64,000 bases of DNA, from NCBI RefSeq assembly GCF_921293095.1, contig NC_060254.1:105114917-105178916 (forward strand), read 5' to 3'. This DNA is from Ischnura elegans. Its lineage: Eukaryota; Arthropoda; Insecta; Odonata; Coenagrionidae. The notes under the pieces were generated by a model. That model saw only the letters and a program-made list of their open reading frames with translations, searched no databases and was not told where the DNA came from. The position numbers were made by a program, and so were the translations under genes. Shown here piece by piece: positions 1 through 64,000 of this stretch (position 1 is the stretch's first letter; every line of letters begins with the position of its first letter).

Positions 1-1821
1 GATTATGAGAATTTTTTTGTTATATTACCACAGGTCAAGCTTGTGGACAACGACAGCGATTGCTTTTGGAGACAACTGTTCAGGTCCATGAAATTGACAC
101 CTGAAGGTTACTGTGCCGAAAACTAGAGAATTGAGGATTTTATCGTGAAGAAATGAAGAATGAAGATAGGAAGAAAGAAGACACCAAGCCTGAAGATAGT
201 TGTATTTTTTGCATTTTTTGTTGCAATTATTGTACAGGGTCTTTGTATATTATTTATTAATGCATGTTTTTTTTCCAGCTATAGTTAGGATTTGCGGCAG
301 GAGAGTAGGGATCTTATATTGCGTCCTACCGTCGAGTAGAAATAACACAGATTAGGCAGGTCTTCATGTATCGTGGCCACGATTCCGTATTTAGGCGTTT
401 AATTAATTCATACGTATAAAGTAGCATTTAGGTAGGCAGGGCTGTATGAATGGATGAATGTGATTTTATGAATGAGTGAATGGAATGTGATTTTATGAGT
501 GAGTGTGTGCTTGTAGTAGTAGTGGTACTAATGGTAGTGTTAGTAGCAATACTGACACTAACTCTCCCTTCCTTTCACTAAAAATCCCTCCCCACCCTCC
601 CTCCCCCTCAAAATCCAAACTGCTCCCTCTACGTGGGGAGGGGGATAAACAGAGGAAAGTCTAATTGTCCAATCAATTGTTGATTTTAATGAATCATTTA
701 TGTCATCTTCTGCTTGAATTACAGCATTGGACTTTCCTCTGGCTAAAGCAGTATGGTATCCTAGTGCAATTTCAAGTTCTGTATTTGTGCTTTGTATTTA
801 GGAGGTTTGAAGTGATAGAATGTTATCTAATTTTTTGCTTGTGCAATTTTGTTCTGTTTATAATGTTTTCATTTTTTTATTCTTTTGGTTGAAATATGCT
901 TCATGGTGACATTACTGATTTATTTTTCATTCACTTTTTTATTATTTTAGCTGATTTTATCCACCAATTTTTGGTACTGTTTTTTTTTAATATTTTCTCA
1001 TTACTATGATATGGTGAATAAGTATTACTGTGTTCTTTTAAGGAATTAAAGTGATATAATAATTATTTTCTGTATTCATTCATTTTCACTGCTCTTGATA
1101 ATGTTGTGTTGTGTAATGGTATATTCTATAAAATTAAATATTAACTTGTATTCCCATTTAAGCATATTTTTTGTAAAATACGTTTTTGTTCCTCCTTTTC
1201 GTTGGTACTGGGGATCTTTTGTTAGATCCATGATTCAACCGTCGCAACATGCTAAAATATGGCAACAATTGTTCTATTACCTTTGTGCATATTATTTTTT
1301 GTAAGTATAAGTAGAATTAGCTTGAATTAATAAAAATTTGAAGTACTGCTCTTTCTGAATCCCTTTTTTGTTAGGCTTTTCTTCGATGCTGTTATTATGT
1401 GCCCAGTCAGAGTTTCTAACCTGCCATCCATGTTGACGGCTTCCGCTGAGAGTATCAATATTGTAAGATGATGTTTGTCTCATTTACTGGTGAAAAATTT
1501 ATAATGGTATTTTTACTCCTGGTTTTCATTTTAGTTACACTAACACCACACAGTAGAAGTTAGAATATTGTTGACCTCACAATGTGGGTCCATATGTAAA
1601 ATTTTGCATGGGTTTTGCATGCTTAAAAATTTCGAGATTGAAAAACTTCTGAATACCTAGGTGAAAATGACACAACCGCGGTTAAAGGTCTTGAGAAAAT
1701 GAATACACTACTTTTTAATCAAAGAGGACTACCATGGCCCTATTGAGGACTCAGGGGTGGTCACCACCCATGTGAAAGGGATGGCATAAGCAGCATGGTT
1801 GCTAAGATGTCCAAGTTTCCA
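1..1821 (+). repeat. Direct repeat, left copy (partner 62181-64000)
   Basis: This block matches 62181-64000 in the same orientation and order from end to end, with scattered substitutions and one-base length differences in T runs; by eye about 2-3% divergence. The copies are 62,180 bases apart. The left copy starts at the window edge and the right copy is cut by the other edge, so the real repeat is longer. It contains a 3' splice site, a purine-rich exon start and an AATAAA signal, so it is the 3' end of a transcribed unit. The simplest reading is a tandem segmental duplication of a whole locus. Confidence 0.95.
34..1350 (+). ncRNA. Terminal exon of the upstream copy of the repeated-exon noncoding gene
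   Basis: A pyrimidine-rich stretch ending in CAG at 31-33 gives a 3' splice site. The exon start is almost identical to the one at 62213. Its first part carries the GAAGAATGAAGAT-type purine motif typical of this gene's exons, and AATAAA at 1329-1334 is the likeliest polyadenylation signal, so the 3' end is approximate. The reading frame that begins at the ATG in the purine block (62339 in the right copy) is not conserved: a T run after it has eight bases here and seven in the right copy. This argues for noncoding RNA. The rest of this gene copy would lie left of the window. Confidence 0.5.
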
Positions 1822-17884: not shown

Positions 17885-17954
17885 ATTTCCTGGATATAGA
17901 CAGTTACTTATACCACTTATAAGTGGTATAAGTAACTGTCTATATCCAGGAAAT
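17885..17954. repeat. Perfect 70-bp palindrome without spacer
   Basis: The two 35-bp arms, meeting at CACTTA/TAAGTG between 17919 and 17920, are exact reverse complements with no unpaired centre. The symmetry ends sharply on both sides (T at 17884, G at 17955). It is not the end of any recognised transposon. See the findings for possible origins. Confidence 0.9.
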
Positions 17955-27051: not shown

Positions 27052-27690
27052 TGTAGGGGAAAACTCCCGCAGAAACTCTAGTGATGCTTAAAACTGCTTT
27101 TGGGAATAGTAATCTAAGTAAAGCACGTGTCTACGACTGGTTTTCGCATCTCAACAATGGACAGATGTCGATTGATGACCATCCTCATTAAGGGCACCCG
27201 TCAACATCAAGAACGGACGGCAATGTTGCAAAAATCCACTCCCTCATTCAAGAAGATCGTTGCCGAACCATACAAGAACTTTATAGGTATTTTGCAGAGG
27301 TTAAGGGAAACTATCCGGAAAAAAAGGGCTGATCTTTGGCACACAGGTGATTGGTTCTTCCACCATGACAATGTACCCGCCCACACCGCAATGTCCATGA
27401 AGTGGTTTTTGACAAAAAAAGGCATCACGCCAATCGTTCACCCCCACTTTTCACCAGATATTGCCACCTGTTACTCTCTCTACTTCCTAGACTGAAAAGG
27501 GATATTAACGGAAAAGGTTTTGGGACGGTAGGTGAAGTAAAACAAAAATCGGTGTAAGGCCGAAAGAACATTGATTTTAGTGAATTAAAAAATTGTTTTG
27601 AAGTGTCAAAGTAACGATTAGATGAATGAATGTGTTGCAGTCAATGAGGATTACTTGGAAGGTGATAACAATTTATAGAGAAAATATTGA
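27052..27690 (+). pseudogene. mariner-family transposase pseudogene
   Basis: Plus-strand frames encode GKTPAETLVMLKTAFGNSNL, KARVYDWFSHLNNGQMSIDD, GHPSTSRTDGNVAKIHSLIQ (N-terminal DNA-binding helices), then LWHTGDWFFHHDNVPAHTA, HPHFSPDIATCY and further on FGTVGEVKQKSV, RLDECVAVNEDYLEGDN. These are mariner signatures. An in-frame TAA lies near 27188, several frame changes occur, and the central region with the first catalytic Asp is deleted. The third Asp position (SPDLAPxD in the family) is Tyr here. It sits between two blocks of the old tandem array, so it inserted after the array formed. Terminal repeats were not identified. Confidence 0.85.
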
Positions 27691-44069: not shown

Positions 44070-44230
44070 GTACACCATGTAATTTACGTGGAAAAATACA
44101 CCACTGTACATCATGTAATTTACGTGGAAAAATACACCACTGTACATCATGTAATTTACGTGGAAAAATACACTACTGTACATCATGTAATTTTCATGGA
44201 AAAATACACTAGTGTACATCATGTATTACA
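44070..44230 (+). repeat. 36-bp tandem repeat, four units plus a partial
   Basis: Units begin GTACACC/GTACATC at 44070, 44106, 44142, 44178 and 44214, each continuing ATGTAATTTACGTGG and AAAAATACAC. The period of 36 is a multiple of three, so frames stay open on both strands across the array, giving misleading open frames. Each unit contains a near palindrome around TACGTG. It lies near the right end of the THAP element and may be an amplified subterminal motif. Confidence 0.9.
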
Positions 44231-45665: not shown

Positions 45666-48600
45666 AAGCAGTGTGCATGTCTCTTGGAATAATGTGAAGC
45701 TACCAGAATGTGTTACTTAGCGGCTAAAGAGTGAAGTGAAAGTGTCAAGGTTCCATCAAATAATTCATTGTCAGTGTTGTGTTCAATGTGAAGTGCTTGT
45801 GAATACAAGTACTTTGGGGTGTCGCTGTTTTAAAGCTGAGCTCTGTCGTCGATGGACCTGGAAGCAAGTAGAAGTTAGGGAGTCTTCTCCTCTTGCAGTT
45901 TTATTCAACATGGAGGTTAAACAATTTTTGCAGAAAATAATTTAAAACAGAAGTGATATAGCTCCATTTTTTTCCGAGGAGAAGGAAAATTCTTTGACCC
46001 AATTCGCGGAGTCTCCTGAAAATGAAAAATATTTCAGGAGTTTATTCGTAGAGTGTCTTTGAATGTTGGAGCTATCGGTTTTTGTAGTATGGCGGGGTGA
46101 ATAAAAAAGGATTTTCAGATTAGTTCAATAGGTATAAATTTCCTAGTACTGCTCTTTCGCTATCGCGTGATCTGGCCACCAATTTCTACAGGTTCGACTA
46201 TGTTGATTTAAGATGCCTTGGGATGAATATTCCTAATGCTCGTATAGAGATTCGTAATGATCCAATGCTTTGATTTTACACCCCATACTGATCAGCTATT
46301 TATAACAGTTTTTAATTAGTAAAGTGTCTGAAAATGCAATCAGTGTCGTGTACACTAAGTTCTCAAAAAGGTTTTTTTTCAGTGAAAAAAGGGTCGGATA
46401 GAAAAGAACAACTGAATCACCTCTTTGGTAAAGAGAGTTGAAGTGAGAAAGGTGTTTGGTTGGTAAAAGTAGATAAGCTTCTTCTCCACTTCTCACTGCG
46501 CTTTTAACACATGAATGTGCAAATCTACGTGAGGCAGTATATAACCGTATGACTCGCTATAATCTAAACCTTTTCTTTTGCGTGTTTCATGGTATATACC
46601 TTGATTTGATCCCTTGCGTGCCGACCGTGTAAATCTCAGACAAAACGCACGCCATAATAGTGCTAATTAAATATTTCTGCCACATTTGCTTCGTTCACTT
46701 TTTTATCCAAAATAAACCCTTCTCCATATTTTTCCTTCGTCGTTTACTTCACAGAAAAATCGAAAAAGTTTGAAAGCTGAAGTAAACCACGATGCATTTC
46801 CCCTTGTACTGACATAACTCGTGAGTTGCGAAAGAATATTATTATATATTGACAGAATACTTAGTCGGATTATCTCATGTTTAAAAGTTACGAGGCGGAC
46901 GAATTGTATCTCTTCAGCTTTTGTTGACTACGACCATTGTCATTAAATAACACAATACTGATAAGCAAACCACGCTGGCAAAGTCTGAATTACACATTCA
47001 GAAATATTCCCATGCAGAAACGCGTTGATTAGGTGACCAAGCTAATACCAATGAACTTGGCTTGTGCTGAAGTTGAAATTCATTGATTATTTCCGTACAG
47101 ATTTTTCTTGAAATTTGCAATAATGTTAGTGTCGCATCATTGTGGCTTCGATGAACTGTTGCGAAATCTCCTTCACTTTAACCTCTCCAAACACAGAACT
47201 TAGAATAGGCATGCCTGCTGGCGCCAAGAATTGGGGCCTAAAATCCGTAATAATTCTAGTCGACAATGGTTTTATTTCGGGGAAAATAAAACAAAAATTT
47301 GCATTAATTTAAAACATGTTTAAACCTACTCAAGATGCCAGTTTTTATGCCTTTCCTGAAGAACAAAATTTGCTATATCAAAGATAATTAATTTGAGTCG
47401 TTACAAAATGATTAAATCTAATGATGAAATCATAACGACATGACTTACCTTGAGTAAAATTCGAAGATGAAGACCAAGATCCTTCACGGAAGAAATCAAT
47501 TTCATCTGTCCTTCATTACGCTATCCTTGAAGTGGTAACTTTTGCTGGTGACTTATATCTTAAGTTGGTTCGTAATGAACCATTTAGCAATCTCTGTGTA
47601 TAAAGAAGACGGCATCAGGTTACTCCATCCGTTGGCCCAAGTTGAACTTGGCTATCAGGGAAACGAATCTGCGAATGACCAGAAAAATAAATACTACTAT
47701 GTTATTTTTATAATTCAATCAAGAGCTACTAATTTCATCGGCGTGTACATTAAAGTATAATGCCATAATTATTCAGGCTTAGTTAGCGACACTACTTTGA
47801 GGCCAAGAAAGGTTTGATAGCTACTAACTAACGCCATTATAAATGAACAAATGTAAAAGCGAGCATGCAAGTCTTCGATATTTTATCGATATCCGTGGCA
47901 TAGTGGAAGAAGATGATCACATTGCGGACTTAATTGAAAAGCATAGATCATATAGAAGACTGAAGATCTTCGAAGCAATTGAAAGCTCTGTTTTGAACTG
48001 TCCAGATTTAATTGTTTACGCTCGGCTAATTACCAAAATGGAAAATATTTTTGGGTGTTATTTGAATGCTTTTTTGCGATTAAACTTAAGGCAGCAATTA
48101 TGAGATTATCGACCCATTCGCAGCTGGCTTACAACGGACAAATGGATAGAACATTTCCGTTTCATGGAATCTTTACCACCGAAATAATGCGTAGAGAAGG
48201 AGTATTAATCTAAGCAATGCATTGAACCATGATTGAATTGAAACTACTAATGCTCAGTGTGGTTTTCATACCTAAATATTCGATAAATTTGAAACATCTG
48301 TGACAAATAATGGATCGTAAAGGTGAGATTTTTATGCGCTATTGAGAACACATAAATACTTATCCCATATGTACAAATCCCATAGCGTGATTAGCTCTTA
48401 TCGCTCGCGAACTCACTAAATATCTCCGCTAATCACTGTCGTATGGAGTAAGTTTACATGGTGAGCTACATTAGTAACATGTTAATGCTTGAGGACAATC
48501 ATGATTAGAATTACTTTCTCTGTTCACCATCTCATAAAAATTACTTGTGCTCACTTACCTCAGTCAAAACCGCTGCATTTCTTCCAAGTATTTCTGTTGA

Positions 48601-48880
48601 TATGTACGTCGTATAATCGCTCTCCATCCTCGTTTAGGCATAATGAGACGGTGACTTCAACGAACGAAGGAACGTTTAAAACAGTCCAGGAAATGAATTC
48701 AACAAATTGAAAACATTCAGAAGTGTGACTCTGCCGAAAGGACGGTTGGTGCTTTCTTCGTAAATAAGAGGAAGGGGAGGTACTGCTTTGCGGACGACAG
48801 TTGAATGCGGACCGTTGATGTACTGTTATTCGTAATGCGGTGACGTGTTTTGCAAACGTACCTAATGACCTTCACACATG
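45666..48880. other. No recognisable gene
   Basis: AT-rich sequence. The longest frame (47843-48103) encodes about 80 residues with no known motif. No transposon ends seen. Confidence 0.4.
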
Positions 48881-48884
48881 ACTA

Positions 48885-49235
48885 GAAAATTCTGGAACAT
48901 TGATCACGTGTGTTTCGACCGTTGGCCGCTCGAGAATTTCCGCGCTATTTTTGTATAATAGCTGAATCATTCGAACGAATCTTATTGGCCGAACGTTTTA
49001 TTGATTTTCCGCGCGATACATTTTTTAATTATAATAAAAAATATTACCGTATTTATTGATGTACTTCATTGGATAAAATTTCAAAGGACCCACATCTTAG
49101 ATATTCAGCGCTTTTTTTCGGTTTTTTGTTGATTAAATAAATAAATCGGTTCGAAATCATCGTGACGTCACAGGCACACGTCACGTGGCTGACGTAGTGT
49201 CGGAACGTCCCCTCCCTCCTATTCTGGACTTCAGT
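48885..49235 (+). promoter_or_regulatory. Putative promoter of the repeated-exon noncoding gene
   Basis: A three-module heat-shock-element match, GAAAATTCTGGAA, lies at 48885-48897 (GAA, two bases, TTC, two bases, GAA). Nearer the start are a perfect CRE palindrome TGACGTCA at 49163-49170, CACGTG at 49182-49187 and a TGACGTAG half site at about 49190. TTCAGTT at 49230-49236 fits the arthropod initiator TCAGTY, with +1 near 49233. No TATA box at the usual distance. A strong donor follows at 49264. The spacing is promoter-like, but activity is inferred. Confidence 0.45.
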
Positions 49236-49263
49236 TCGCGGCAAGCTCTCTTGGGATTAAGAG
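49233..49263 (+). ncRNA. Exon 1 (proposed)
   Basis: From the initiator-like TCAGTT to the donor AAGAG/GTGAGT at 49263/49264. Very short (about 31 nt) if the initiator is used; transcription could start further upstream. Confidence 0.4.
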
Positions 49264-50487
49264 GTGAGTACCTTAATTACTTGTTTGGTGATTCATTTTC
49301 ATATTATTTTCAATGCACTTTCATTGTACTCTTTAAAGTGTAGGATCCTTCGCAAATGCAATTTGTTCAATTCCATTCAGTTATCGAGATTAGAGTGGCA
49401 TATATTTTGAGTCACAATATTTATAACGCCAACTACCTCCATATTCCAACTTTATTACCATGTGCCCGAAGTTAATATTAGTGTCGGAGTAGTTTTTTTA
49501 AAGAACGCTAGTGATAGGGAAATCTCCTCTCGGATTAAAGCCATCCTGTTTTCATTCTTAATCCTGTGACTTTTGAATTGAAATAATTTTTTTTGTGAAA
49601 ATTGGATGTTGGACGTCATTGGACGAAATTCCATAATACTAGATTTATTGCCATTACGAATATTCGATCATTCGATTCGTTTGACCTTTGACAAAGCATC
49701 TACATTCGTTAGGAATATGTGTAAATTATAACAGTTACATTCTGATATGATGTGTCGTCATTTGAAATGAGTAAGTAGTTTTATCTTTACATTTATCGAG
49801 GCTTTTAGAACATCAAATATTTCGATTTGATTGCAGGAATTATGATCCGTAAGGCACTCTGATAGCTTACTTCTAGTACTTCAGCAGGTTAGTTACTATT
49901 TTGACGAATGTCATAATGATGAATTTTATCGCGTTGACTGTAGGTATAAGATATTAACATTAGATTGGAGCAGTGTATTTCATGCCAGCCACGCTGCTTC
50001 GTTGTTGATTGTGAGAGACCATTACATTTCAAAATGAAGCTTCTATCCGCGATTTCTTTAGTTGTTAGCCATTAGGATCCCTTATTCATGCTTTTACTAT
50101 AATTGGTACCTGAATGGCGAGTTATTCCACGTAAGTAATTAATGTTTCAACGAGGTATTTTAAAAAGTCCTTGTTATTTGAACCTAGGAAATTGCAGTTA
50201 ACTTATTTCGTTAATACAAGCACCAGCCTCTCCGGAACCACTCCGCAATAATTTATCACATAATTTTGATGATGAGGAAAAGTAATAGAATATTAGAGGT
50301 CTTAATTGGATTTACAGCACTTCACTTGGCAATATATTTTTTCCACTTACTTCACCTTTGGAGTCGTTAGTACGATAATTTGTTGTAGCCTTTAATATCA
50401 ACATAATCTTTAAGTTATGCTCCATGTAAAGTGTATATTTTTGTCGCGTGAATATTGTCAGCCTTTAACGCGAACTTTTCTTTTCAG

Positions 50488-50591
50488 GTCCTCCATTGAA
50501 TAGGGGTGGCGGATCAGTTCCGTGAAACGGTTGGGGTTGAATGGGGCATTTGCGAAGTGGTTTCAAGGAAGAGGAAGACTGAAGAAATATG
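50488..50591 (+). ncRNA. Exon 2
   Basis: Acceptor CTTTTCTTTTCAG ends at 50487; donor ATATG/GTGAGT at 50591/50592. The 104-nt exon ends in GGAAGAGGAAGACTGAAGAA, the purine-rich signature of this gene. Confidence 0.55.
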
Positions 50592-51094
50592 GTGAGTCAA
50601 TATCATTCACTTCATATGATAGGCCTTTGAATATTCCAATGCATAAATATTTGACTTCTCTATATCTCTGTTAGTAACTAATTAAGAACTAAATCCTGTG
50701 CGGTGCGCAAAAATTAACTTCTTCTGTGATAATTTTTATGATGATATTTCATCATTTCCTATTTTATAATAGTGTTTTGCGCTACGAATTCTCAGCTGTT
50801 TACTGGTATAAATATCCGGGACTATGAAGGCGAAGAGGAATTAAATCTGTTTTAATTTTACGTAGTTCAGGTGAATTTTGCGAGGTTCATTTTAGCATTT
50901 AAACATGCCACGGTCTCCCAAATGCTCTTTCATATCCTTCATTTTTGGTTTCTTAAATACGAAATCAGACGTCTTACTTTTCCGCTCTTACCAACCACTT
51001 GTCATTCGAGGATTGACTTCCTTAGAGCATCAAGTTTTTCAAGATAAGTTCGATTACAATGGTGTGTATTCTACTTTAAGTATTGACTAGGCTT

Positions 51095-52450
51095 CTATTC
51101 TCTCCCACTCTTCTGAGGAATCCCGCAGTCCTCACTAGAACGATGCATTTCATTTTCATACAGCCGAATAATACCCATCAGTTTCTTCACTGCTGTCATT
51201 GCCCATGATTCATTGCCATAGAGAAGCATACTCGAATTGTATGTTCTGATAAAATATTTCCAAACTTAATTTTCATCATAAAATTTCCTGCTTTTCTAAG
51301 CAAATTGATGGTTTATTTTTTCTGGAAAGTATTTTTGCCCTGGGCTGTCCTACTGATTATTTCTCTTTTGTTTTTACAATTGATTATTCTGCCTCCGAAA
51401 TATTTAAACTGGTGACCTCTTCCAATCTTTCTTTCACTAGTTTTATTCTATTCTTAACTTCCTGCCGTTTGCTACACTCTAGTATTTGATGGTGATTTTC
51501 AGATGGCATTGGTCGTTGTTCTGCCCACCTTTACTAGAATGTTTTTCTATTTTACAAATATTATAAGCGTGTCTCCTCGTGCATATTCATCCATGTAAAC
51601 TCCCAATTTTTTCTTGGATGTAATCGGTGCCTTTTTAGTTGTAAACTATGAAAATTACGGGAGAAATAACACCGCCTCAGATCACTTGACTTTTCTCCCA
51701 ATACTTGATTCTTCATAGCTGGGCCCTATAATGTTGGCCCTACCCCTACTTGGTGTTTTTAAACGAATTGTGGATCATTTATATGCCATTGTTAATTAAC
51801 TTCATTCAAAATTATAAGTATGGAATTCCAATCCACACTACTGCTGCGTCAAATTATTCAAGGAAGAAAAAGACTAAAGGAATTTGGCGAGAAACTGGTC
51901 GACCTCTTCCAATGTTTTTTTCCCTAGTTTAATGCTATTCTTATGCTACACTCTAATGTATAATATTCGATATCCATTTAAATTGATTTCGTACTTAGTC
52001 GCCCTCCTATACACGTCTCATTCAGATATTCAATCCATCTCTTCATTTTTATTAGTCATCAGTCAAAAGTTCTCCGTTTTTGTCACTTGCGGTATTCATC
52101 ATACGCTCATTAATTTGAAGAGATTCCCATAGCGAGCTTCTAGTTTTCCTTGCGCACGATGTTTTCATATTCCTCGACCGCTTTTCTCTGGCCTCCTTGA
52201 CTTCATGTCAAATATCGTTCTTTATTCTCCTTTGAAATTCCACGGCTTAAGTATTCTTGTACTTCAGTGGTGCCTCAGTTAGATTCGAGACTTTTTGCGT
52301 GATCCATTCAGATTATTATCCTTCTCCCAAGAACTTCTTCAGCTGCTTCCAATAACCCACTGCTCAAGCGTTTCTGACTCTCTTCTTCTGATTTCTCGGT
52401 CACATCCGATGCTACTTTGGTCTACTCTGCGTCCTCAAATTACACTTGAT
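51095..52450 (-). pseudogene. LINE remnant in the gene's first large intron region
   Basis: The minus strand near 51140-51265 encodes YFIRTYNSSMLLYGNESWAM then TAVKKLMGIIRLYENEM, the LLYGSETW thumb region of non-LTR reverse transcriptases. Near 52180-52390 it encodes pieces like EAAEEVLGRRIIIWMD and EYLSRGISKENKERYL, resembling the linker after the endonuclease. The order is right for a minus-strand LINE with its middle decayed. A segment of about 150 bp near 52380 recurs near 52795, and one near 51340 recurs near 52655, showing local duplication. Antisense to the host transcript. Confidence 0.6.
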
Positions 52451-52899
52451 ACCGAGTTTTCGTAAATTTTTACTTGCCAAATGTTTTTCACCGCTTTCTT
52501 CAGTTTTTAATTTTTTTATTATTAAAGATGAGATAGCATTGTCGCTGATGAGAGCCTTAGGGTAACTTTTACCGTCATTTTTCAAGTTCTTTAATTGTTT
52601 TATTTTCGCTATCGTATCCTCCGTTAGTCGTTTTTTTTCCCTATAATCGCTTCACCTGGGCTGTTCTACTGGTTATTTCTCTTTTGTTTCTACACCTGGT
52701 TATTCTGCTACCAGTGTTTGTTTCCCTGGTTTTATGCCATTCTTGACTCCTTGTGTTTTATTACACTGTAATATTTTATGGTGATAATGTTTCCGACTCT
52801 CTTCCTCTGACTTCTCGGTCATATCCGATGCTATTTTGTTCCCCTCTACCTCCTGAAATTACACTTGATATTCTTAATTTTCTGCCTACCAAATACTTT

Positions 52900-53880
52900 T
52901 CTCGGCTTTCTTAAGTTTTTATTTTATTATTTTTGGTAACATAACATCTCTATGGAGGCATAGTCTCGGTCGTTTTAAGCCTAAGGGTCACTTTTGCCGT
53001 CCATTTTATTGTCGATGAATCGTTTCATCTTCGTAGAATTTAATCAACTTAGAATATATCAAGTCCACTATCACTTTCCTCTTTTTCTTCGACTGTGATC
53101 ATTTTTTATTTTGTATTCGAAACCACTAGCTTGTGTTCTTTGTCAGTCTTTCATTTTGGATTTACATCATCCCTGTTTCTCGGCTTTCCTCGCATCTTAA
53201 AATTCGTCAGTGACGGCATAAAATTCACCGAGAATAATTGCATTTTCTTCACCTCTAATCTGCATGATTATTCCCGCTGATCTTGATTCACTTACTCCAC
53301 TTCTGCATTTCTTAGCAATTTTTTAGGTTTACAAACATTCGGAGATGCAGTAGTTATGGGTTTTGCTTTATATCTTAACCATTACCTACCTTTCATCATA
53401 CATTTGGTGGCTTTTTAATTGTCGCTTTTGATAAGCATTATACTTATTACAGCATTAATATTTAGCGATCCTTCGTGTATTAATCTGGAGCTTGCACTCC
53501 ACAAGTCTCCCACTCCGGGCAACTGTATTTCGCCGATTCGTAGCTATGACATAAAGGGATAGTTGTGGTGGTCGACCTTAGCCTTCTACGTCGCAGTATT
53601 TTAGGCATTTAATTGACATTACGGCGCCTGTAGTGAGTAAAGTATCGATTTTTTAAATAATACTCTCGGATGTTTCGTTAAAATCCTTTCCATCATTTCT
53701 TCCGTTAGGGTGTAGCAAAGTTCAACCTATTAATACTTTACAGCCCCACCAACAAATTGATAGCGATAATCGCTATGCCAACGAAAAAACTTTTAAGTCT
53801 ATGTCGCTGCGTCAATTTTCGGGTGGCGCTAACATTTCCCGAAGAATGATGGTCGCATTCTGAAGTGAATCAGATGAAGT
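52900..53880. other. No recognisable gene
   Basis: Intronic, T-rich on this strand. May include more decayed LINE sequence, but no motif was recognised. Confidence 0.35.
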
Positions 53881-53984
53881 AGGAACTGTTATTCATACAT
53901 ATTTATTGGTAGTGAACCCAGATAGAAAGCCAGGCAATGGTGAAAAAAAAGAAATTCGGCTATTTAAGAATCAGTTAAAAACTT

Positions 53985-54740
53985 TTATTCATATATATTT
54001 ATTGGTATTCGTTTCAGGGGGGAATGGGAGTTGGAGGAGTAGGTTGTTGAGTGCCTTTTCCGAATTACGGTTTGACAAGTACGAATTATTTTAAGGCCGG
54101 TGTCTCTGTTGAGATTGTTCTTCTCCACTTTTTTTATTTCGATGGCTTCTCTGACGAGTCTTTTTTGAAAGCCTTTCACGTAGGCGACAATTTCTGTTCC
54201 TTTAAGGTCGATTGCGTGGCCCAGCGCTGCGTGTTCGGCTGCCGTGGACTTAATTGACTACCCCAGTTGAATTGCTCTCTCGTGTTCCTCCTGGCGTGTT
54301 CTAACTGATCTGCCAATGTAGTTCTTCCCACAGGTTTGACAAGGGATCCGGTAGACTCCTTCGACTTGTAGTGGAGCTCTGTCCTTGACGGGTTTTAAGA
54401 GATTTTTTATCTGCACGTGAGGAGAGAAGATTGTCCTTATCTGATATGTTCATAGGATATTTCCAAATCTGTCCGTTGTCCTATTTATGTGCAGTAGACT
54501 TTCTTTTGGTCGCTGATGTTATTTGTTGAGGAGTTCGCTGTTTCTGCGGTGTCTGCTTTGTCCTCAACATTCTTTTTCATGACCTTAATCAGTGCTCGTT
54601 AGATAATTCTTTCGTCGAATTCATTTCCCCGCAGAAAGGCCTCTAGTTTCCGCCTTTCTTCGGCAAAGTTGTTTTGGTCGATTATTGTGTTGGAGCGGTG
54701 ACTCAGGGCGCTTACCACTCCATTTATTTGTGCTAAGTGA
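53985..54740 (-). pseudogene. Fourth PLE fragment: end of reverse transcriptase plus GIY-YIG endonuclease
   Basis: The minus strand encodes INGVVSALSHRSNTIIDQNN, AEERRKLEAFLRGNEFDERI (the segment after the reverse transcriptase), then PLQVEGVYRIPCQTCGKNYI, GRSVRTRQEEHERAIQ (GIY-YIG with CxxC and YIG intact), STAAEHAALGHAIDL and FQKRLVREAIEIKKVEKNNL, NRDTG. In-frame stops lie at about 54599-54601 and 54258-54260, and a few residues after YIG are missing. This lineage differs from the copy at 5.5-9.5 kb. It lies antisense within the proposed intron. Confidence 0.85.
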
Positions 54741-54899
54741 TGAGTATATGCCCATGTTCAACTCTCCTCTTTGTACATTTGAGTTTTCAATTGCATGTAG
54801 CCACCCACGAGCCCCACTTAACTGATGGAGCCGGGTCTGTGAAAAATCGGAATTAATGTCAGCAAATGGAAAGCACTGAGGAAGAGCTTGGAAGTGTTT

Positions 54900-55345
54900 T
54901 CTTTCGGGCTCCGTGGCGAATAATTTCCTCTCTTTAGATTTTCCTGTCTTTAGAAAGTATTTGTACCTACCGTCTATGTATAACTACTACATTATATATT
55001 TGCGTTGTTGTTATAGATATATACTATATCTCCTCCTCTAGGATCATCAAAACTATTTCAACTAAGAATACATCGTACGTAAGAACGCATAGTAAGAATA
55101 GAATATTTAATGCGTGTTGTCGATACTAAGCGTAAGAATTTAACTCAATCGAGGATTGACAGATATTGGTCGCATGCACACGATGATATAACTATGGCCA
55201 CTTTCCTTGCTGATTTCCAAAGGTATTTATTTCCACATTTTTTTCAGCATTCAAGCAAAAAATACCACTTTCGTCTGTCAACTATATATTTACTCTGTAT
55301 CGAACAAGCCAATTCCTACGAATATTACATCTTTGGGGGTATCCA
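54900..55345. other. No recognisable gene
   Basis: AT-rich intronic sequence between the PLE fragment and the piggyBac-like MITE. Confidence 0.4.
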
Positions 55346-55349
55346 TTAA

Positions 55350-55928
55350 CCCTTTCGACACAGTGGTGTTGTTGCCTTAGCATGACTGTTGGACTGAGCC
55401 CCAAGGGTCCCTTCCGTCCCCTCTGTACGGACCATTTTGCAGGACATTGGTTAAGAAGGGTCTCACGGATAATCACACTCCCTCAGCGCCAATCTTTTTC
55501 GACTTTTCCGCATTATCTCGGGATCAAAGTATAGTTGGTCTTCCTCCTTTCCGGGTTGATAGCCCTAGTAGCAGAATTGGTTCCGGGTCAACTCATGATT
55601 AGTTTATGTGAATTTTCTACATGGATAATTGTTGTTTGTCCGTATGTTGCAGTCTTCGAATTCAATTCCTCGGTTTCTTTTCTGTGCAATGTCAACTTTT
55701 GAACGGAGCTCTGCCGTCCTAACCAACGGATTTAATGCATTAACAATTTATATGTTGATGGTCCAGATAAGGTTTCGCGTATCCTCGACCGGCATAAAAG
55801 GGCAACGATACGGATATTTACGGCATTCCTTGGCCTGCGTCGGAAAATATATGACGAATATTTGCGGCTTTCGTCCTCCGTGTCAAAAACCGTCCGGGCG
55901 AATATTTACTTTTTTAGTAGCGAAAGGG
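55350..55928. mobile_element. piggyBac-like MITE with TTAA target
   Basis: TTAA at 55346-55349 and 55929-55932 flank inverted ends CCCTTTCG and CGAAAGGG. About 580 bp, with an open frame at 55629-55949 that runs out of the element and has no transposase motif. The right ~130 bp (GGATATTTACGGCATTCCTT, GAATATTTGCGGCTTTCGTC) is shared with decayed repeats near 17465-17700, 16441 and 11300. Confidence 0.75.
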
Positions 55929-55932
55929 TTAA

Positions 55933-57619
55933 TTAGATGTGGCGTTTAGGAGGGGCGAGAGGATCGAGTCGATTCTCACCCAATCTCACGTGGGGGTCCT
56001 TGCAAGTATCACGTAATTTTTTTCTAAAAAAATGATAAAACATTGCTTTTTAATAAATCTAACGAATGAAGGTTAGATTATGGTATTTACACTAAACATA
56101 CGTTTTCAATTCTGTCGCGATAATAACGCATGGATATGGGTCATCGTTTTAAGTTATTGATTTTTTATTTTACCACTAAGATAACCCGTGAAATATAGAA
56201 ATAAGGTTCGCTTGACTGCCTCCTTTGTTTCCAGTATCAAGTTCAACGATTTATGTGAAGAGAGAAGGAAATTTTTATGCAAATATTGACTGATCATTGA
56301 TTAAAAATTATCTTCCGTATTAATTTATCCAAAATAAACTAGATAAAGTTAAATCGTGATCTCGGTGGAACAAAGCAACTTTGGATTTGTACAAATTGGA
56401 ATTCAAAGAATCATGTTCAACTTGTAATTTTATACTATATCGTGTGGTCAATAAAATAATTTTTTTAGTTATATATTTAAATTTTGCTGCCTGCCTATTT
56501 TTTAAAACAAAAAAATTGATACGGTGTAATATTTCCCAAAATGTTTGTATGCTATGTATTTCTTTGGTACTGCTTATTCTACGAATTCTCTAGTGTTGCT
56601 ATTATAATACTTAAAGTTATATATTTCTAAGTCATTTTACATATTTATACAAATCTTTCACTGCTAAAATAAAGTGGATATAGAGAATTCCACATTAAAG
56701 TACAATGATTTCATCTGTTACGTGAGATTTTAATATACCTACCCTATTCAATATCACTTTAGAAAGCTCCCAAAGAAATAGACTGTTGTTTAAAAGTCAC
56801 TGAACAAATATGTGAATTTCTATAGAATTTTTTGGGTGTCCTTCTTTTTAAATAAACAGCCTTTGTTTTAGCATCCATTTCCACGATTTATAAAGACAGG
56901 CGGGTATAATATTTTGAGTCATTCCACCTCAATTTCAAAAAAGCTTGTCCCGTAGGGTGTCAGATTTTGATGAATTCATGGTTGATAGTTTATAGTTGAA
57001 GCTGTAGGTCATACTACTATGATATAGACTACCAGTCTATGAGTAGGTACACGTCCATATACTAGTATTAAAAATAATCGGAAAGCCGCACGGGAGAAAA
57101 AGTAAACGTTCAAATATTTCCAAAAAATATCATTCAGGAGTTGATTTAAATTTAATTTTTGTTATTCTAAGGCAATGATTGAGCCTGCATTCTAAAGATT
57201 AAATGCTTGGGCCACTTCCGAGATGTGTTATTTGAAAAAAGTTGATTTGTTGAACAATATTTTAAATATTTAGATATAACAATAATAGATAGGTGCACTT
57301 TAGCAATATTTTACTCAAAGTGACTACCGAAAGGACTTATCAGTAAAATAAGCAATAAATAATGTCTCTACGACAATTTGATAGTTAAATTGTTGGATTT
57401 ATATGATTTAGCGCAATTTTTTTAGGAAAATAATCGATAACGTATTAAAACCATATATGAAAAAAAGATCTCACGGTATTTAGTGTGTGGTTGATGAAGA
57501 CCCATACAGGTATCAAAATCTGAGTCTCTTAGGGACAATCGCTTGTTGAATTAAGGTGGATTGACCCATGTTTAATAATCTAACCCCCGAATTTAACTTA
57601 ATTTTTTGCTCTCTTCTAG
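55933..57619. other. Intronic sequence, nothing recognised
   Basis: Very AT-rich; no transposon end or coding similarity seen. Confidence 0.4.
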
Positions 57620-57837
57620 GTGCAACCAATCCCCGGACATGAGGGGAAGAATGAAAGGTGGAGCAGGAAGAATAAAGAAGAGAAGAAGACGATGGCCTCG
57701 CGGGACACCCAATGCTAATTCCTTTTATGTTATTCGGAGAGATTTGACTCGAATTTTAATCCTCTTTTTTGCTCTTTCAATTTCAGAATGAATATTGAAG
57801 AGTATGAACACCATTCATCGACTTGAGTTGAAGGCTG
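57620..57837 (+). ncRNA. Exon block 3-4
   Basis: The acceptor TTTTTTGCTCTCTTCTAG ends at 57619. The following ~95 nt (AGGGGAAGAATGAAAGG, GGAAGAATAAAGAAG, CGATGGCCTCGCGGGAC) aligns to the repeated exon at 59048, so it is an older copy. A second acceptor at 57786 and donor GGCTG/GTAAGAG at 57837/57838 bound a 51-nt exon. No good donor is seen for the first part, so it may be one exon (57620-57837) with an internal alternative acceptor. Confidence 0.45.
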
Positions 57838-58247
57838 GTAAGAGTGCAGTTTTCCTCGGGCGCTGTTCATTGCCGTATATTTTCATCAGGTTTACATCAG
57901 GTAATCTAGAACGTGAAATGGTAAAATAGGGCCGACCTAAACCACACAACAGGAGTTTTGAGAGACTCCTGGTGGAAAGTGAATTCACCCTCGATTATCA
58001 AAGCACGAGCTCTAGGTAAAAACAGTACACGAAAGGTAACGGCTCGAAGGAGCAAGTTTGAAAAGGTTTCGAAACAGCGCTGAAACAAAGGTACCACAAA
58101 GTGCACTTAAACGTTATTTACTACGAATGAGACCGGTCCCAGGAGACAAAGAATGCATTCTTAGGCAGGAAATCTACGTGGTTATTTTTGTGTGTGTAGT
58201 TTTTTTTAGGTATTTGGGTGGGTTTGTACTAACACCATTTATTGCAG

Positions 58248-58330
58248 GAGTGAAGAATGAAGACGTAGCTGAGGCCCCGAAGATTGAAGACATCGAAGGG
58301 GGCCTCGAAGAATGAAGAGGGAAGATAATG
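58248..58330 (+). ncRNA. Purine-rich exon with TACTAAC branch point
   Basis: A perfect TACTAAC lies about 17 nt before the acceptor ATTTATTGCAG (ends 58247). The exon contains GAAGAATGAAGAC, GAAGATTGAAGACATCGAAG and GAAGAATGAAGAGGG. The donor is weak (AAT/GTGTGT near 58328). Confidence 0.4.
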
Positions 58331-58434
58331 TGTGTGCATATCGGGAATGAGTGGACATTGATAATCCCTCGCCTGAACTGGGTTTACTTTGTTTGTACTT
58401 AATTGTAACATGTCTGTAACTCCTTCCCTTCCAG

Positions 58435-58490
58435 CCATGAAGATTGAAGACATCAAATTGAGCTCGAAGAACGGCAAGAATACGAGAACG
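58435..58490 (+). ncRNA. Purine-rich exon repeating the previous exon's motif
   Basis: The acceptor CTCCTTCCCTTCCAG ends at 58434. The exon starts CCATGAAGATTGAAGACATC, nearly the same as CGAAGATTGAAGACATC in the exon at 58248, so the two are duplicates. The donor is uncertain. Confidence 0.35.
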
Positions 58491-58654
58491 TGTGTTTTTT
58501 CATCTATCGTGTGATTTCGTGTGATATTTTTCTGCGTGTGATTATTTATATTTGCGTGTGCTGCGAGTATTTTTCCGTTGCGTCGCGTTAGGGTTTGTGT
58601 GTTAGTGTTATTTATTTATTTGTTTGTGCATGCACTAATCTTACCTCTTCACAG

Positions 58655-58755
58655 AATCAAGCCATCGCTGGACTTCAAGGAAGGAAGAGTGAGGACTGCA
58701 CGAAGAAGAGGAGATTGAAGACGCAAGTATTCACGGAAGAAAGAAGAGAAGCATC
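58655..58755 (+). ncRNA. Exon, oldest member of the tandem exon series
   Basis: The acceptor CTTACCTCTTCACAG ends at 58654; donor GCATC/GTAAGA at 58755/58756. The exon starts AATCAAGCCATCGCTGGAC, homologous to GTCCGCAAGCCATCGCTGGA in the next three. Its downstream intron (TTGGGCCCTTATGGCCAATG) is also shared. Confidence 0.5.
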
Positions 58756-59047
58756 GTAAGAAGACGTGTGCGATATTTGCGGCTTAGTTTTGGGCCCTTA
58801 TGGCCAATGAAAAAAAAATATTTGCGTAAGGCTAGGCGTTTATTCCGTGCGTTAGTTTTAGTTATTTTTTGCCGCGGTTTTGCATTACGGATTCCATTGC
58901 GTCATGCAGGAATGTGGCTGTGGCTAGGTAGGAAATTTATGATTTCCTATCGATGCCATTGTCTCGTTCTTGTGTGATGCTTTGGAGTGGTGCAAATCCT
59001 CGGAAGGGTTTTTTATTTGTGTATGCACTAACCCGCTCTCTCCCTAG

Positions 59048-59187
59048 GTCCGCAAGCCATCGCTGGATGTGAAGAGAAGAATGAAGATTCATCGGAAGAA
59101 TAGAAGACAGACGATGATGGCATCGCGGGACCAGAAGATGGCGACATCTTAGCTTTGGGCCCTTTAGGCCAATGAACATAAATTTGC
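59048..59187 (+). ncRNA. Repeated exon, copy 1
   Basis: Acceptor CCCGCTCTCTCCCTAG ends at 59047; possible donor TTTGC/GTAAGG at 59187/59188. Contains GAGAAGAATGAAGATTCATC, GGAAGAATAGAAGACAGACG. A frame from the exon start runs about 34 codons to a TAG, so it is not a through-running coding exon. Confidence 0.5.
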
Positions 59188-59408
59188 GTAAGGCTAGGCG
59201 TTTTTTCCGTGCGTTAGCTTTAGTTTTTTGTGCCGTGGTTTTGCATTACAAATTCCATTGCGTCATGCAGGAATGTGGCTGTGACTAGGTAGGAAATTCA
59301 TGATTTCCTATCGATGCCATTGTCTCGTTCTTGTGTGATGCTTTGGAGTGGTGCAAATCCTCGGAAGGGTTTTTTATTTGTGTATGCACTAACCCGCTCT
59401 CTCCCTAG

Positions 59409-59548
59409 GTCCGCAAGCCATCGCTGGATGTGAAGAGAAGAATGAAGATTCATCGGAAGAATAGAAGACAGACGATGATGGCATCGCGGGACCAGAAGAT
59501 GGCGACATCTTAGCTTTGGGCCCTTTAGGCCAATGAACATAAATTTGC
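59409..59548 (+). ncRNA. Repeated exon, copy 2
   Basis: Same sequence and splice sites as copy 1, 361 bp downstream. Confidence 0.5.
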
Positions 59549-59769
59549 GTAAGGCTAGGCGTTTTTTCCGTGCGTTAGCTTTAGTTTTTTGTGCCGTGGT
59601 TTTGCATTACAAATTCCATTGCGTCATGCAGGAATGTGGCTGTGACTAGGTAGGAAATTCATGATTTCCTATCGATGCCATTGTCTCGTTCTTGTGTGAT
59701 GCTTTGGAGTGGTGCAAATCCTCGGAAGGGTTATTTATTTGTGTATGCACTAACCCGCTCTCTCCTTAG

Positions 59770-59894
59770 GTCCGCAAGCCATCGCTTGACATGCTGAGAA
59801 AAGTGGAAAGAAGACACTTGGAAGAAGATGGGATGGTGCACCTCACCGAGCCGGCTTCTTGCGGCTCTACATGAGTTGCAGCAGATAAGGAGCG
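59770..59894 (+). ncRNA. Repeated exon, copy 3, hybrid 3' half
   Basis: It begins like the other copies (GTCCGCAAGCCATCGCTTGA) and then diverges to new sequence (GGAAAGAAGACACTTGGAAG). The donor GGAGCG/GTATGA is at 59894/59895. This copy marks the right end of the tandem series. Confidence 0.5.
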
Positions 59895-59999
59895 GTATGA
59901 TCTCATAATATTGATTCAAATTTGGTTCATTTTTCACATATAATTTTTTTAATTAACGAGTTGATTGAGAATTTTCAATGTTACATTCATTAACGGAAC

Positions 60000-60740
60000 T
60001 CAATTGTGCTTATAGTGAACTTCTAATTTGCCCATAATGCCATTAAAATTAACAAATGAACTTAATATCCTCCTCAATTTAGTCATTGACTAATCAGTTT
60101 GAAGATTGTACTTGGTACTTATTAACTGGAAGTGATATAATTTCATGGATCTATACTAACTTTGAATTGAATTGAAAAGTTATGAAAAAATATTTCCAAT
60201 GGGCAAAATATTTTTTGTGCCAACTTTTTTCTCGATGACTTATAATAACACATCAACGTATTTTCTTCACAAATGTTTTCGAGTCAAAATATCACCTCCC
60301 TTACCTGTCTCGGCAAAATATTTTCAAATTATAAAGCAGTCCGAATAACTTTTATTTGTAATTAGTATCTAATTATCTGTTTATTCATTACAAATGTTAT
60401 TTTCCATCATGATTTTTCATTCTGAATCAGAGTTATTTAACTATTTTTTGTCCTGTGAAAGGTTACCCATTTCAAAATCAGTCCTTCATTTTTCCTATTC
60501 AAGGGAGATATAGTTCCATTTAATTGGAATCATTTTATTATAATAAGTATTATTAATTAATAGAATATTATTTTAATTTCCTCTGCAATACGGGAAATGA
60601 TATTTTTCACTCCAAGTTTTTTAAATCTAATTCAAAGGTGAGCCTATTCACACTGTGACGCCCATGCGCCATAAGAAAATATATCGATTGAATCGGCCAT
60701 GAGGCCGATTTTCAAGCGTATTGGTTTGTCTCTTTATGAG
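60000..60740. other. Intronic AT-rich sequence
   Basis: No coding similarity. A small perfect hairpin (AATCGGCC, ATGA, GGCCGATT) lies at about 60692-60711, shortly before the next acceptor. Confidence 0.4.
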
Positions 60741-60762
60741 TGTTCGTTTTTTTCAATTACAG

Positions 60763-60861
60763 AGTTCGAAGGATCGTATTGTGTGAGTTGACTACTCGAG
60801 GCCTCGATGAAAGCACGTGCAAAGAGATCGAAAGAATACAGCTCGTTGCCGCAAGCAGACG
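60763..60861 (+). ncRNA. Exon
   Basis: The acceptor TTTTTTTCAATTACAG ends at 60762; donor CAGACG/GTAAGA at 60861/60862. The 99-nt exon includes GAAAGCACGTGCAAAGAG. It is not a copy of the repeated exons. Confidence 0.5.
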
Positions 60862-60869
60862 GTAAGATT

Positions 60870-62180
60870 TCATTCATTCCTCTTCCAAGTTTTGTGTTCA
60901 GCTCAGAACCAATATTTAGTGATCACATAGGTACACTATGATTTTTACATTCAGGAACCTCGATGATAAAAGTAATGATTGTGTGAGAAAATAAATAAAT
61001 ATTTTCACATTTCCTACGCGAAAATATTTAATTCAACCGCACCCAAAATTAAGATTTGGCGCTTTTTTTGTAACACTCACAAAACTAAAATCCTGCGCTG
61101 AATCTCAAGGCATTGATTGGTTGGCGACGACGATAGCGTTTGCTTTCATATATTTCGATTTGAAACTTCATTCCTGAGAAACTATATAATTCGAATGAAG
61201 GACAGTTATGGGAATTGTCGTCAATCTATCATAAGTATATACTTTGCTGTTTAATTTTTTCATTGTAATACGGAGGTCGAGGTTTCCATATTGGCCTTGC
61301 TTTTAGTAACTCAGCATCCGTCATGCGCGCTCAAGTAATAACTTCCTCGGAGACCCTATCTGAGTGAAACATGAGATTCCGGTCATATTTTCTACCTATC
61401 TGAATTTTCCGTGAAATGTATATTCCGAGTATAAGTGACATATTTTTAAAAAAGTCGCAAAAATAATGTAATGATACTCATTTTTGTTTAATTTTGGGTA
61501 CTTATTTTCCGTTGACGCTTTTTTCCTTGCTGTTAAATATTTATTAAGCCAATGGTGTCAGGAAATTCAGTATATATTTTTCATTTTTTTCGGCTGTTTT
61601 GTTTCTGATGTGATTACTTAGACATCTGGTTCTTTGCATGATCTTGAGAAATAATTTATATTATTTCTTTCGTATCATTAGACTTATATATTACATCCCA
61701 CAAGAAATTATTATAATACATTCTCCTGGATAGCTGTTTTATCCTTAATAAGGATGCCATATTTGTAACTTCTGTTTTCGTCTTTTTAAATAATTTCATC
61801 GTGTTGATTTTTATAATTTCATTATTGTTTTCCATTTCATAAAATAGTACATAAATTTTTGCTATCAATTTTTAGTAATACCCATGAAGTACAAGTAAGT
61901 CGTAAAAAAAGTTATATTAATAACACACTCAGCTCACTGTAATGATTTCTGGGAAAATTTTTAATGTTGCCCAATCATATCTTTAAAATTTTTAATGAAT
62001 AAAGAAAATACATTTAAATATCGACGATTTGATAAGCGTCAAAGAATTAGGAATTACACACTCTTGCATTTTTTTAATTTTAAAAATTTCTACACGCTTA
62101 AAAATTAATATTTTCGAAACGGCTTTCTCGAAATGATATTTCTGAGCTGAGAGTCAACTTTTTATGTCTCTCCTTTGTTG
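60870..62180. other. Last intron, AT-rich
   Basis: No transposon or coding feature recognised. It is absent from the left part of the window because the left repeat copy starts at the window edge. Confidence 0.4.
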
Positions 62181-64000
62181 GATTATGAGAATTTTTTGTT
62201 ATATTACCACAGGTCAAGCTTGTGGACAACGACAGCGATTGCTTTTGGAGACAACTGTTCAGGTCCATGAAATTGACACCTGAAGGTTACTGTGCCTACA
62301 ACTAGAGAATTGAGGATTTTATCGTGAAGAAATGAAGAATGAAGATAGGAAGAAAGAAGACACCAAGCCTGAAGATAGTTGTTTTTTTTGCATTTTTTGT
62401 TGCAATTATTGTACAGGGTCTTTGTATATTATTTATTAATGCATGTTTTTTTCCAGCTATAGTTAGGATTTGCGGCAGGAGAGTAGGGATTTTATATTGC
62501 GTCCTACCGTCGAGTAGAAATAACACAGATTAGGCAGGTCTTCGTGTATCGTGGCCACGATTCCGTATTTAGGCGTTTAATTAATTCATACGTATAAAGT
62601 AGCATTTAGGTAGGCAGGGCTGTATGAATGGATGAATGTGATTTTATGAATGAGTGAATGGAATGTGATTTTATGAGTGAGTGTGTGCTTGTAGTAGTAG
62701 TGGTACTAATGGTAGTGTTAGTAGCAATACTGACACTAACTCTCCCTTCCTTTCACTAAAAATCCCTCCCCACCCTCCCTCCCCCTCAAAATCCTAACTG
62801 CTCCCTCTACGTGGGGAGGGGGATATACAGAGGAAAGTCTAATTGTCCAATCAATTGTTGATTTTAATGAATCATTTATGTCATCTCCTGCTTGAATTAC
62901 AGCATTGGACTTTCCTCTGGCTAAAGCAGTATGGTATCCTAGTGCAATTTCAAATTCTGTATTTGTGCTTTGTATTTAGGAGGTTTGAAGTGATAGAATG
63001 TGATCAAATTTTTGGCTCGTGTAACTTTGTTCTGTTTATAATGTTTTCATTTTTTTATTCTTTTGTTTGAAATATGCTTCATGGTGACATTACTGATTTA
63101 TTTTTTTATTCACTTTTTTATTATTTTAGCTGATTTTATCCACCAATTTTTGGTACTGTTTTTTTATATTTTCTCATTACTTACTATGATATGGTGAATA
63201 AGTATTACTGTGTTCTTTTAAGGAATTAAAGTATTATAAAAATTATTTTCTGTATTCATTCATTTTCACTGCTCTTGATAATGTTGTGTTGTGTAATGGT
63301 ATATTCTATAAAATCTAATATTAACTTATATTCCCATTTAAGCATATTCTTTGTAAAATACGTTTTTGTTCCTCCTTTTCGTTGGTACTGGGGATCTTTT
63401 TTAAATGCATGATTCAACTGTCTCTACATGCTAAAATATGGCAATAATTTTTCTATTACCTTTGTGCATATTATTTTTTGTAAGTATAAGTAGAATTAGC
63501 TTGAATTAATAAAAATTTGAAGTACTGCTCTTTTTGAATCCCTTTTTTGTTAGGCTTTTCTTCGATGCTGTTATTATGTGCCCAGTCAGAGTTTCTGACC
63601 TGCCATACATGTTGATGGCTTCCGCTGAGAGTATCAATTTTGTAAGATTATGTTTGTCTCATTTACTGGTGAAAAATTTATAATGGTATTTTTACTCCTG
63701 GTTTTCATTTTAGTTACACTAACACCACACAGTAGAAGTTAGAATATTGTTGACCTCACAATGTGGGTCCATATGTAAAATTTTGCATGGGTTTTGCATG
63801 CTAAAAAATTTCGAGATTGAAAAACTTCTGAATATCTAGGTAAAAATGACACAACCACGGTTAAAGGTCTTGAGAAAATGAATACACTACTTTTTAATCA
63901 AAGAGGACTACCGTGGCCCTAATGAGGACTCAGGGGTGGTCACCACCCATGTGAAAGGGATGGCATAAGCAGTATGGTTGCTAAGATGTCCAAGTTTCCA
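62181..64000 (+). repeat. Direct repeat, right copy (partner 1-1821)
   Basis: Same order and orientation as 1-1821 over its whole visible length, truncated by the window end. It contains the last exon of the noncoding gene. See the left copy. Confidence 0.95.
62213..63530 (+). ncRNA. Terminal exon of the noncoding gene
   Basis: The acceptor TTTTTTGTTATATTACCACAG ends at 62212. The exon starts GTCAAGCTTGTGGACAACG, then has GAAGAAATGAAGAATGAAG and GATAGGAAGAAAGAAGACAC. AATAAA at 63508-63513 is the best polyadenylation signal; the exact end is unknown. The frame from the ATG at 62339 gives a short hydrophobic peptide that the left copy breaks by a 1-base T-run difference. Confidence 0.5.

Follow-up and report, generated by a model that had tools for sequence, protein, structure and literature searches.

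What does a noncoding gene built of many short, purine-rich exons carry, and does it carry it in its mature exons or in its introns? This question is raised by a locus of Ischnura elegans (Odonata, Coenagrionidae) on the plus strand, from 49233 to ~63530 of a 64,000-nucleotide stretch of DNA (NC_060254.1, positions 105,114,917 to 105,178,916, assembly GCF_921293095.1), which was analysed as a whole and is referred to below as the window. The initial annotation, made from the letters alone, described a spliced noncoding gene assembled from repeated exon modules and proposed that its RNA presents many copies of a protein-binding motif. The analysis reported here draws attention to the introns. 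With a confidence that approaches even, we read the locus as a spliced plus-strand noncoding gene hosting intronic hairpins that would be small-RNA precursors.

Hairpins in the predicted introns of a tandemly duplicated unit

A 132-nt hairpin of 53-54 base pairs is present in each of three predicted plus-strand introns: intron 6 (58826..59047), with 54 pairs at 58872-59003; intron 7 (59188..59408), with 53 pairs at 59233-59364; and intron 8 (59549..59769), whose hairpin at 59594-59725 has the same sequence as that of intron 7. The first hairpin folds at -73.8 kcal/mol, with z-scores of -10.84 (plus strand) and -4.5 (minus strand), and the two identical ones at -66.7 kcal/mol (z -10.85 plus, -2.87 minus), while the entire intron 59188-59408 reaches -83.9 kcal/mol (z -7.4). 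The stem contains 11 G.U pairs, U.U oppositions and 0 or 1 A.C mismatch, and it closes on a loop of ~3 nt with a nearly palindromic centre. The fold scan of the window comprised 3192 windows on both strands; z was tested for the 516 at or below -38 kcal/mol, and 45 of these had z < -4. Only one place other than the hairpins reached z <= -8, a palindrome at 17801-18040, which did so on both strands. A covariance model of the hairpin matched the same three places only, at 150 bits on the plus strand and 52-55 bits on the minus strand, and hairpin 59233-59364 had no match at E <1.5 elsewhere in the window beyond the three copies.

The pattern of change between copies also bears on the fold. The first and second hairpins differ at 5 of 132 positions, four of them unpaired, and the second and third are identical. 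When the flanks and the exon tail are included, changes affect 1 of 108 paired positions against 12 of 153 other aligned positions (p 0.017), with 4 gap positions omitted and the fold of the first copy applied. This constitutes fair, though not conclusive, evidence for selection on the RNA fold.

The hairpins belong to a 361-bp tandem unit, present in 2.8 copies, that consists of one exon and one intron. The recent duplication spans 58783-59800 and runs from the tail of exon 6 through an intron, exon 7, an intron, exon 8 and a further intron to the start of exon 9. Two observations lead us to place the putative payload of the gene in its introns: no fold with a strand preference was stronger in the window scan than the hairpin, and changes between copies spare its paired sites. 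Moreover, since the duplicated unit joins an exon to a hairpin-bearing intron and the changes between units avoid paired positions, the introns appear to be at least as good payload candidates as the exons. The idea of an RNA whose point is to display many copies of a protein-binding motif is hence not specifically supported, given that the duplicated unit includes a hairpin intron unseen in the initial annotation.

A predicted spliced gene without coding capacity

Splice signals were scored with approximate matrices drawn from general knowledge, and each was ranked against the GT or AG sites on either strand. A consistent series of signals was obtained on the plus strand across 49233-63525, defining 11 exons that join into 2478 nt, and on these signals the locus looks like a spliced gene. 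All five junctions put forward in the initial annotation (49263/50488, 50591/57620, 59187/59409, 59894/60763 and 60861/62213) fall on plausible splice sites. Acceptors 50488, 57620, 59409, 60763 and 62213 rank in the top 0.1-2%, and the donors after 49263, 50591 and 60861 in the top 0.06%, 0.4% and 1%, respectively; the donors after 59187 (top 13%) and 59894 (top 5%) are weak.

Predicted exon 1 (49233..49263) begins at an initiator-like TCAGTT (49231-49236), a word with 21 occurrences in the window, and ends at the donor GAG/GTGAGT. Exon 2 (50488..50591; acceptor 9.0, donor 10.3) has 3 GAAGA words and is unlike all other exons compared. Exon 3 (57620..57837; donor 9.3), whose acceptor lies in the top 0.13%, has an internal alternative acceptor at 57787, and its 3' end is uncertain because no clear donor follows soon after 57620. 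Exon 4 (58248..58329; weak donor 5.3) packs 7 GAAGA into 82 nt and has in common with exon 5 (58435..58489; acceptor 10.7, weak donor 4.7) the 16-mer GAAGATTGAAGACATC, identical over its 16 bases. In viral contigs, 54 stretches each contain GAAGATTGAAGACATC exactly once; these matches were taken for chance. Exon 6 (58655..58825), exon 7 (59048..59187; acceptor 9.5, weak donor 3.7), exon 8 (59409..59548), which equals exon 7 with 0 differences in 140, and exon 9 (59770..59894; donor 5.9) flank the hairpin introns. They are followed by exon 10 (60763..60861; acceptor 8.3, donor 8.8), which is unlike the other exons, and by the last exon, exon 11 (62213..~63530), with a purine block at 62320-62375 and an AATAAA signal at 63508.

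Branch-point and C/D-box words were likewise taken from general knowledge. A CTAAC or CTAAT word lies 19-20 nt upstream of 5 of the 12 acceptors examined, namely 58248 (CTAAC at -19), 58655, 59048 (CTAAC at -20), 59409 and 59770. Acceptor 57620 has CTAAC at 40 nt, four others (50488, 57787, 58435 and 62457) have words of the TTAAC or TTAAT type alone, and the remaining two, 60763 and 62213, have no branch-point word. In addition, the 5' arm of each hairpin contains a stretch of 18 nt (58910-58927, 59271-59288 and 59632-59649) between a good acceptor and a fair donor, an arrangement that resembles a micro-exon concealed within the stem.

A second copy of the 3' end of the gene, comprising the last exon and downstream sequence, occupies 1..1821 on the plus strand and is 97% identical to 62181-64000 (1771 of 1826 columns). 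From position ~34 it keeps the last acceptor and the purine block unchanged, and it also includes the polyadenylation signal. The two copies, ~62 kb apart, could be either a tandem duplication with a ~62 kb period or two haplotypes set side by side by the assembler.

The longest ATG-started frame in the joined exons encodes 67 amino acids. Between the gene copies a 64-residue frame shifts, and the 67-residue frame of the last exon is open in both, with 6 residues differing as counted by eye. A protein-coding gene was rejected, since no ATG-started frame exceeds 67 residues and the 64-residue frame is not kept, and the reading-frame check, having given no long or conserved frame, bears out the earlier assignment of the locus as noncoding. 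Since the last exon ends at AATAAA 63508, a signal that the second copy retains, a view of the exons as the 5' untranslated part of a downstream coding gene is disfavoured, though still conceivable, given that only 0.5 kb of the window follows. No Rfam family reached its gathering score in the window, and no tRNA was found there. For the hairpin, no miRNA-type (microRNA-type) Rfam match was obtained up to E 2 in 48600-64000, and hence no known miRNA family, a result with which a lineage-specific miRNA remains compatible. The last exon also contains a shorter inverted repeat (62828..62920, plus strand), with a 15-16 bp stem and a ~60-nt loop (z -3.4; -4.0 on the plus strand and -3.5 on the minus strand), which was rejected as a miRNA precursor because its fold is not strand specific.

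Purine-rich words and exon modules

The exons are strongly enriched in GAAGA words: 47 occur in 1333 nt, the last exon being cut at 62380, whereas 500 within-exon dinucleotide shuffles averaged 9.0 and never exceeded 17. Without exon 8, the identical copy, 41 are counted in 1193 nt (shuffle mean 8.1, maximum 17), and the intronic 11.8 kb between 49233 and 62212 holds 9. The purine blocks helped to define the exon boundaries, which makes the enrichment partly dependent on these boundaries; the acceptors are independent. The longer word GAAGA(A/T)TGAAGA occurs 7 times against a shuffle mean of 0.02. The statement that almost all exons carry variants of the motif goes too far: the exact long word is found in 5 of the 11 exons, and in 6 if any middle base is admitted, and GAAGA itself is absent from exons 1 (49233) and 10 (60763).

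GAAGA words are bound by SR and Tra2 proteins, which help exon recognition. Exons with weaker donors tend to have more of them (Spearman -0.67 over 10 exons, p 0.035; p 0.047 over 9 once the identical exon is dropped), with p values that are optimistic in that related exons count separately. The pattern fits exonic splicing enhancers acting beside weak donors. It also fits part of the initial annotation, which suggested that the gene may have grown by duplication of self-enhancing exons, in both the inverse relation between GAAGA and donor strength and the duplication of GAAGA-rich exons.

Exon relationships were assessed for 9 of the 11 exons in 36 pairs, exon 1 being too short and exon 8 the same as exon 7. 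Similarity is clear for exons 6 and 7 (z 13.9), 3 and 7 (z 11.5), 7 and 9 (z 6.7) and 4 and 5 (z 6.5). Seven weaker pairs (7-11, 3-9, 4-11, 3-6, 4-6, 4-7 and 6-9) have z 3.2 to 4.5, which repeated GAAGA words could cause, and the remaining 25 pairs have z <3. The five exons starting at 57620, 58655, 59048, 59409 and 59770 were rightly recognised as copies of one module, with unequal strength: from z 3.2 for 58655 against 59770, 3.5 for 57620 against 58655 and 4.2 for 57620 against 59770, up to 13.9, and with identity of 59048 and 59409 over 140 nt. Over 96 aligned bases, the bodies of exons 6 and 7 show 24 changes and 36 gap positions; for exons 8 (whose body is that of exon 7) and 9 the corresponding figures are 30 and 27 over 99. 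Exons 6 and 9 have bodies that fall outside the recent duplication or leave it early, and their divergence appears to be older.

Evidence against an intronic payload and alternative explanations

Several observations weigh against the hairpins being small-RNA precursors. The minus strand matches the hairpin model too, and the strand preference is hence one of degree. Only two distinct hairpin sequences are available, so that covariation cannot be shown, and the count of paired and unpaired changes uses one fold. In simulations of a neutral palindrome under GT-rich mutation, with parameters of our own choosing, at least 9 G.U pairs arose without any A.C mismatch in 25 of 4000 runs; allowing up to one A.C mismatch raised this to 96 of 4000. 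Animal miRNAs generally have loops longer than ~3 nt, and classic hairpin RNAs (hpRNAs) stems longer than 53 bp. No relative from other species was found in viral contigs, where one 20-base exact word from the hairpin had 0 matches, or in Rfam, where the sole match up to E 2 in 48600-64000 was a bacterial ribozyme model at E 2. The donors of the hairpin introns are weak, and these introns may therefore be retained. Finally, the divergence between the bodies of exons 6 and 7 gives no help: it was rejected as a sign of an intronic payload because the body of exon 6 lies outside the duplication, which starts at 58783, so that the difference can reflect age instead of missing selection.

In a rival view, which extends that of the initial annotation, a spliced long noncoding RNA (lncRNA) acts through its mature exons, in which proteins that bind GAAGA, such as SR proteins and Tra2, would find a multivalent platform or sponge; the intron hairpins would be passengers. 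The GAAGA excess over shuffled exons agrees with this view, as do the identity of exons 7 and 8 and the purine block of the last exon, which is unchanged in the second copy; the two copies differ by 9 substitutions in the first 780 bp and by 35 in the 1040 that follow (p 0.002, for a cut chosen after inspection of the data). We regard it as a serious alternative, if a less probable one, since the demands of splicing suffice to explain purine words next to weak donors, such words being fewer in exons whose donors are good, and since it does not predict selection on the hairpin, where selection is visible. An origin of the hairpin as a decayed palindromic transposable element, already in the intron of an ordinary lncRNA gene before the recent tandem duplication, would agree with the short loop and nearly palindromic centre, with the further inverted repeats and transposon remnants in the window and with the minus-strand match to the hairpin model, and GT-rich mutation could imitate part of the strand bias. 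This origin is judged unlikely in view of a window without any other copy, a much better fold on the plus strand and changes that avoid paired sites.

A third possibility is a heat-shock or stress gene resembling Drosophila hsr-omega or human satellite III RNA, that is, a nuclear tandem-repeat RNA collecting RNA-binding proteins under stress, with its hairpin introns retained, as their weak donors would allow. The heat-shock, cAMP-response-element (CRE) and initiator words were taken from general knowledge. The heat-shock-element-like word GAAnnTTCnnGAA, with a fourth near-unit (48885..48902, plus strand), lies ~350 bp upstream of the predicted start and is the sole perfect triple unit of the window, where 20 more triple matches carry one mismatch; the mean number of perfect elements in shuffled windows is 0.86, so that this one is weak evidence and not above chance for the window as a whole. 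All five occurrences of TAGGTAGG in the window are confined to this locus or its copy, and they stem from two independent sites, the duplicated unit (three copies) and the last exon (two copies). The nonamer ATAGGTAGG, which we take to be that of the hsr-omega repeat, has 0 occurrences in the window, and CTAGGTAGG is found instead. The array of 2.8 units also contrasts with hsr-omega, described as having ~280-bp tandem repeats over 5-15 kb, located 3' of two exons (PMC9865238), and a stress gene is accordingly considered improbable. Least probable of all, by a wide distance from even, is a small nucleolar RNA (snoRNA) host gene, which likewise has noncoding exons and introns that each contain one structured RNA. 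No Rfam snoRNA was found, H/ACA boxes not having been scanned for. Four C boxes (RTGATGA) are present, all of them within introns 1 and 2, and a single one has CTGA at 45-140 nt; the other 8 of the 10 introns, among them the three that carry hairpins, lack a C box. A single long hairpin dominates the intron fold. The probabilities assigned to these readings overlap, in that action through the exons and a role in stress can each coexist with the others.

Relationship to known gene systems

Three hairpins here (53-54 pairs; plus-strand z about -10.8) show the inverted repeat, predicted to form a long double-stranded stem in the sense transcript, that is one mark of hpRNA genes. The arms of hpRNAs are typically long and near-perfect, and the 53-54 bp stem described here, with its U.U and G.U oppositions, is shorter and more mismatched. 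The nearest known kind is nevertheless that of the Drosophila hpRNA genes with tandem hairpins, such as hp-CG4068, in which the hairpins derive from a common transcript and number 20 copies in D. melanogaster and 9 in D. simulans (PMC10317233). As presented in that source, tandem hpRNA genes are best described in Drosophila, evolve fast and in some cases silence selfish genes, and hp-tHMG-solo is a spliced hpRNA transcript (PMC10317233). Unlike in these genes, each hairpin here occupies its own predicted intron between GAAGA-rich exons. We point to a likeness, without claiming class membership, for hairpins that are known here from sequence.

Spliced miRNA and snoRNA host genes (MIRHG, SNHG) are noncoding multi-exon hosts with a structured payload (PMC7719101), a plan to which the present locus conforms. 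It departs from them in that its payload has no Rfam family, the exon and the hairpin intron are duplicated as one cartridge and several exons are copies of a single module. With hsr-omega it has in common a noncoding, spliced transcript, tandem repeats and a possible heat-shock element, and it differs in its exon plan, in having 2.8 copies of 361 bp without the nonamer and in repeats that contain splice sites and hairpins. The initial annotation had recognised no described lncRNA with this layout, which overlooks intronic small-RNA host genes and tandem hpRNA genes of the same overall plan. Among the literature matches listed, as judged by titles and abstract starts, no tandem exon-plus-hairpin-intron noncoding gene was noticed, a weak negative.

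Other features of the window

Upstream of the predicted start, the proximal promoter words TGACGTCA, CACGTG and TGACGTA lie at 49163..49196 on the plus strand; with 3, 23 and 4 occurrences in the window, respectively, they are weak signals. The observed/expected CpG ratio is 1.4-2.3 over 48601-49200 against 0.74 in the window, and it also rises to 1.79 at 49601-49800, within intron 1.

Several repeats and mobile-element remnants were observed elsewhere. Within the palindrome at 17801-18040, positions 17884-17955 form a 34-bp perfect inverted repeat with a 4-nt loop, whose strands fold about equally well, as is typical of a recent palindromic mobile element. Penelope-like remnants at 5523-9466 comprise GIY-YIG matches, seen in two frames, and a match to reverse transcriptase that stays below the curated cut-off, and the same region holds a 1180-bp inverted duplication (5523-6702 against 8287-9466) at 99.9% identity. 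Inverted 500-bp copies at 7027-7526 and 24795-25294, 97% identical and bearing short terminal inverted repeats, are probably a mobile element. A mariner-like transposase remnant, with a weak DDE_3 match below the curated cut-off, is located at 27118-27492, and a 36-bp tandem repeat of 4.3 copies at 44070-44225. Taken with the style of the promoter, the Penelope-like and mariner-like remnants point to an animal source, probably an arthropod.

Proposed mechanism and implications

Under the interpretation of the locus as a host of intronic small-RNA hairpins, GAAGA words would recruit splicing activators of the SR/Tra2 type, through which short exons with weak donors could be recognised. The hairpins, within the introns or released from them, might then be cut by RNase III enzymes, which take long hairpins as substrates: a Dicer-2-like enzyme in the case of small interfering RNAs (siRNAs), or Drosha and Dicer-1 in the case of miRNA-like RNAs. 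The most likely role of the hairpins, as far as can be judged from the DNA, is that of precursors of endogenous siRNAs, in a manner resembling hpRNAs, or of miRNA-like RNAs, and the resulting small RNAs would silence targets.

A bolder proposal, possible but speculative, is that this is an expandable hairpin-cartridge gene, which grows by duplicating a self-enhancing GAAGA exon together with a small-RNA hairpin intron, each hairpin bringing its own splicing signals. Such a gene would be a spliced, intron-borne form of a tandem hpRNA locus, perhaps in two genomic copies ~62 kb apart. Because the cartridge consists of one exon and one hairpin intron, each duplication would add a hairpin and leave splicing unbroken. 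If true, this would provide a simple route by which a noncoding gene may gain dose and new hairpins with its splicing intact, and it would give such a gene a reason to retain purine-rich exons.

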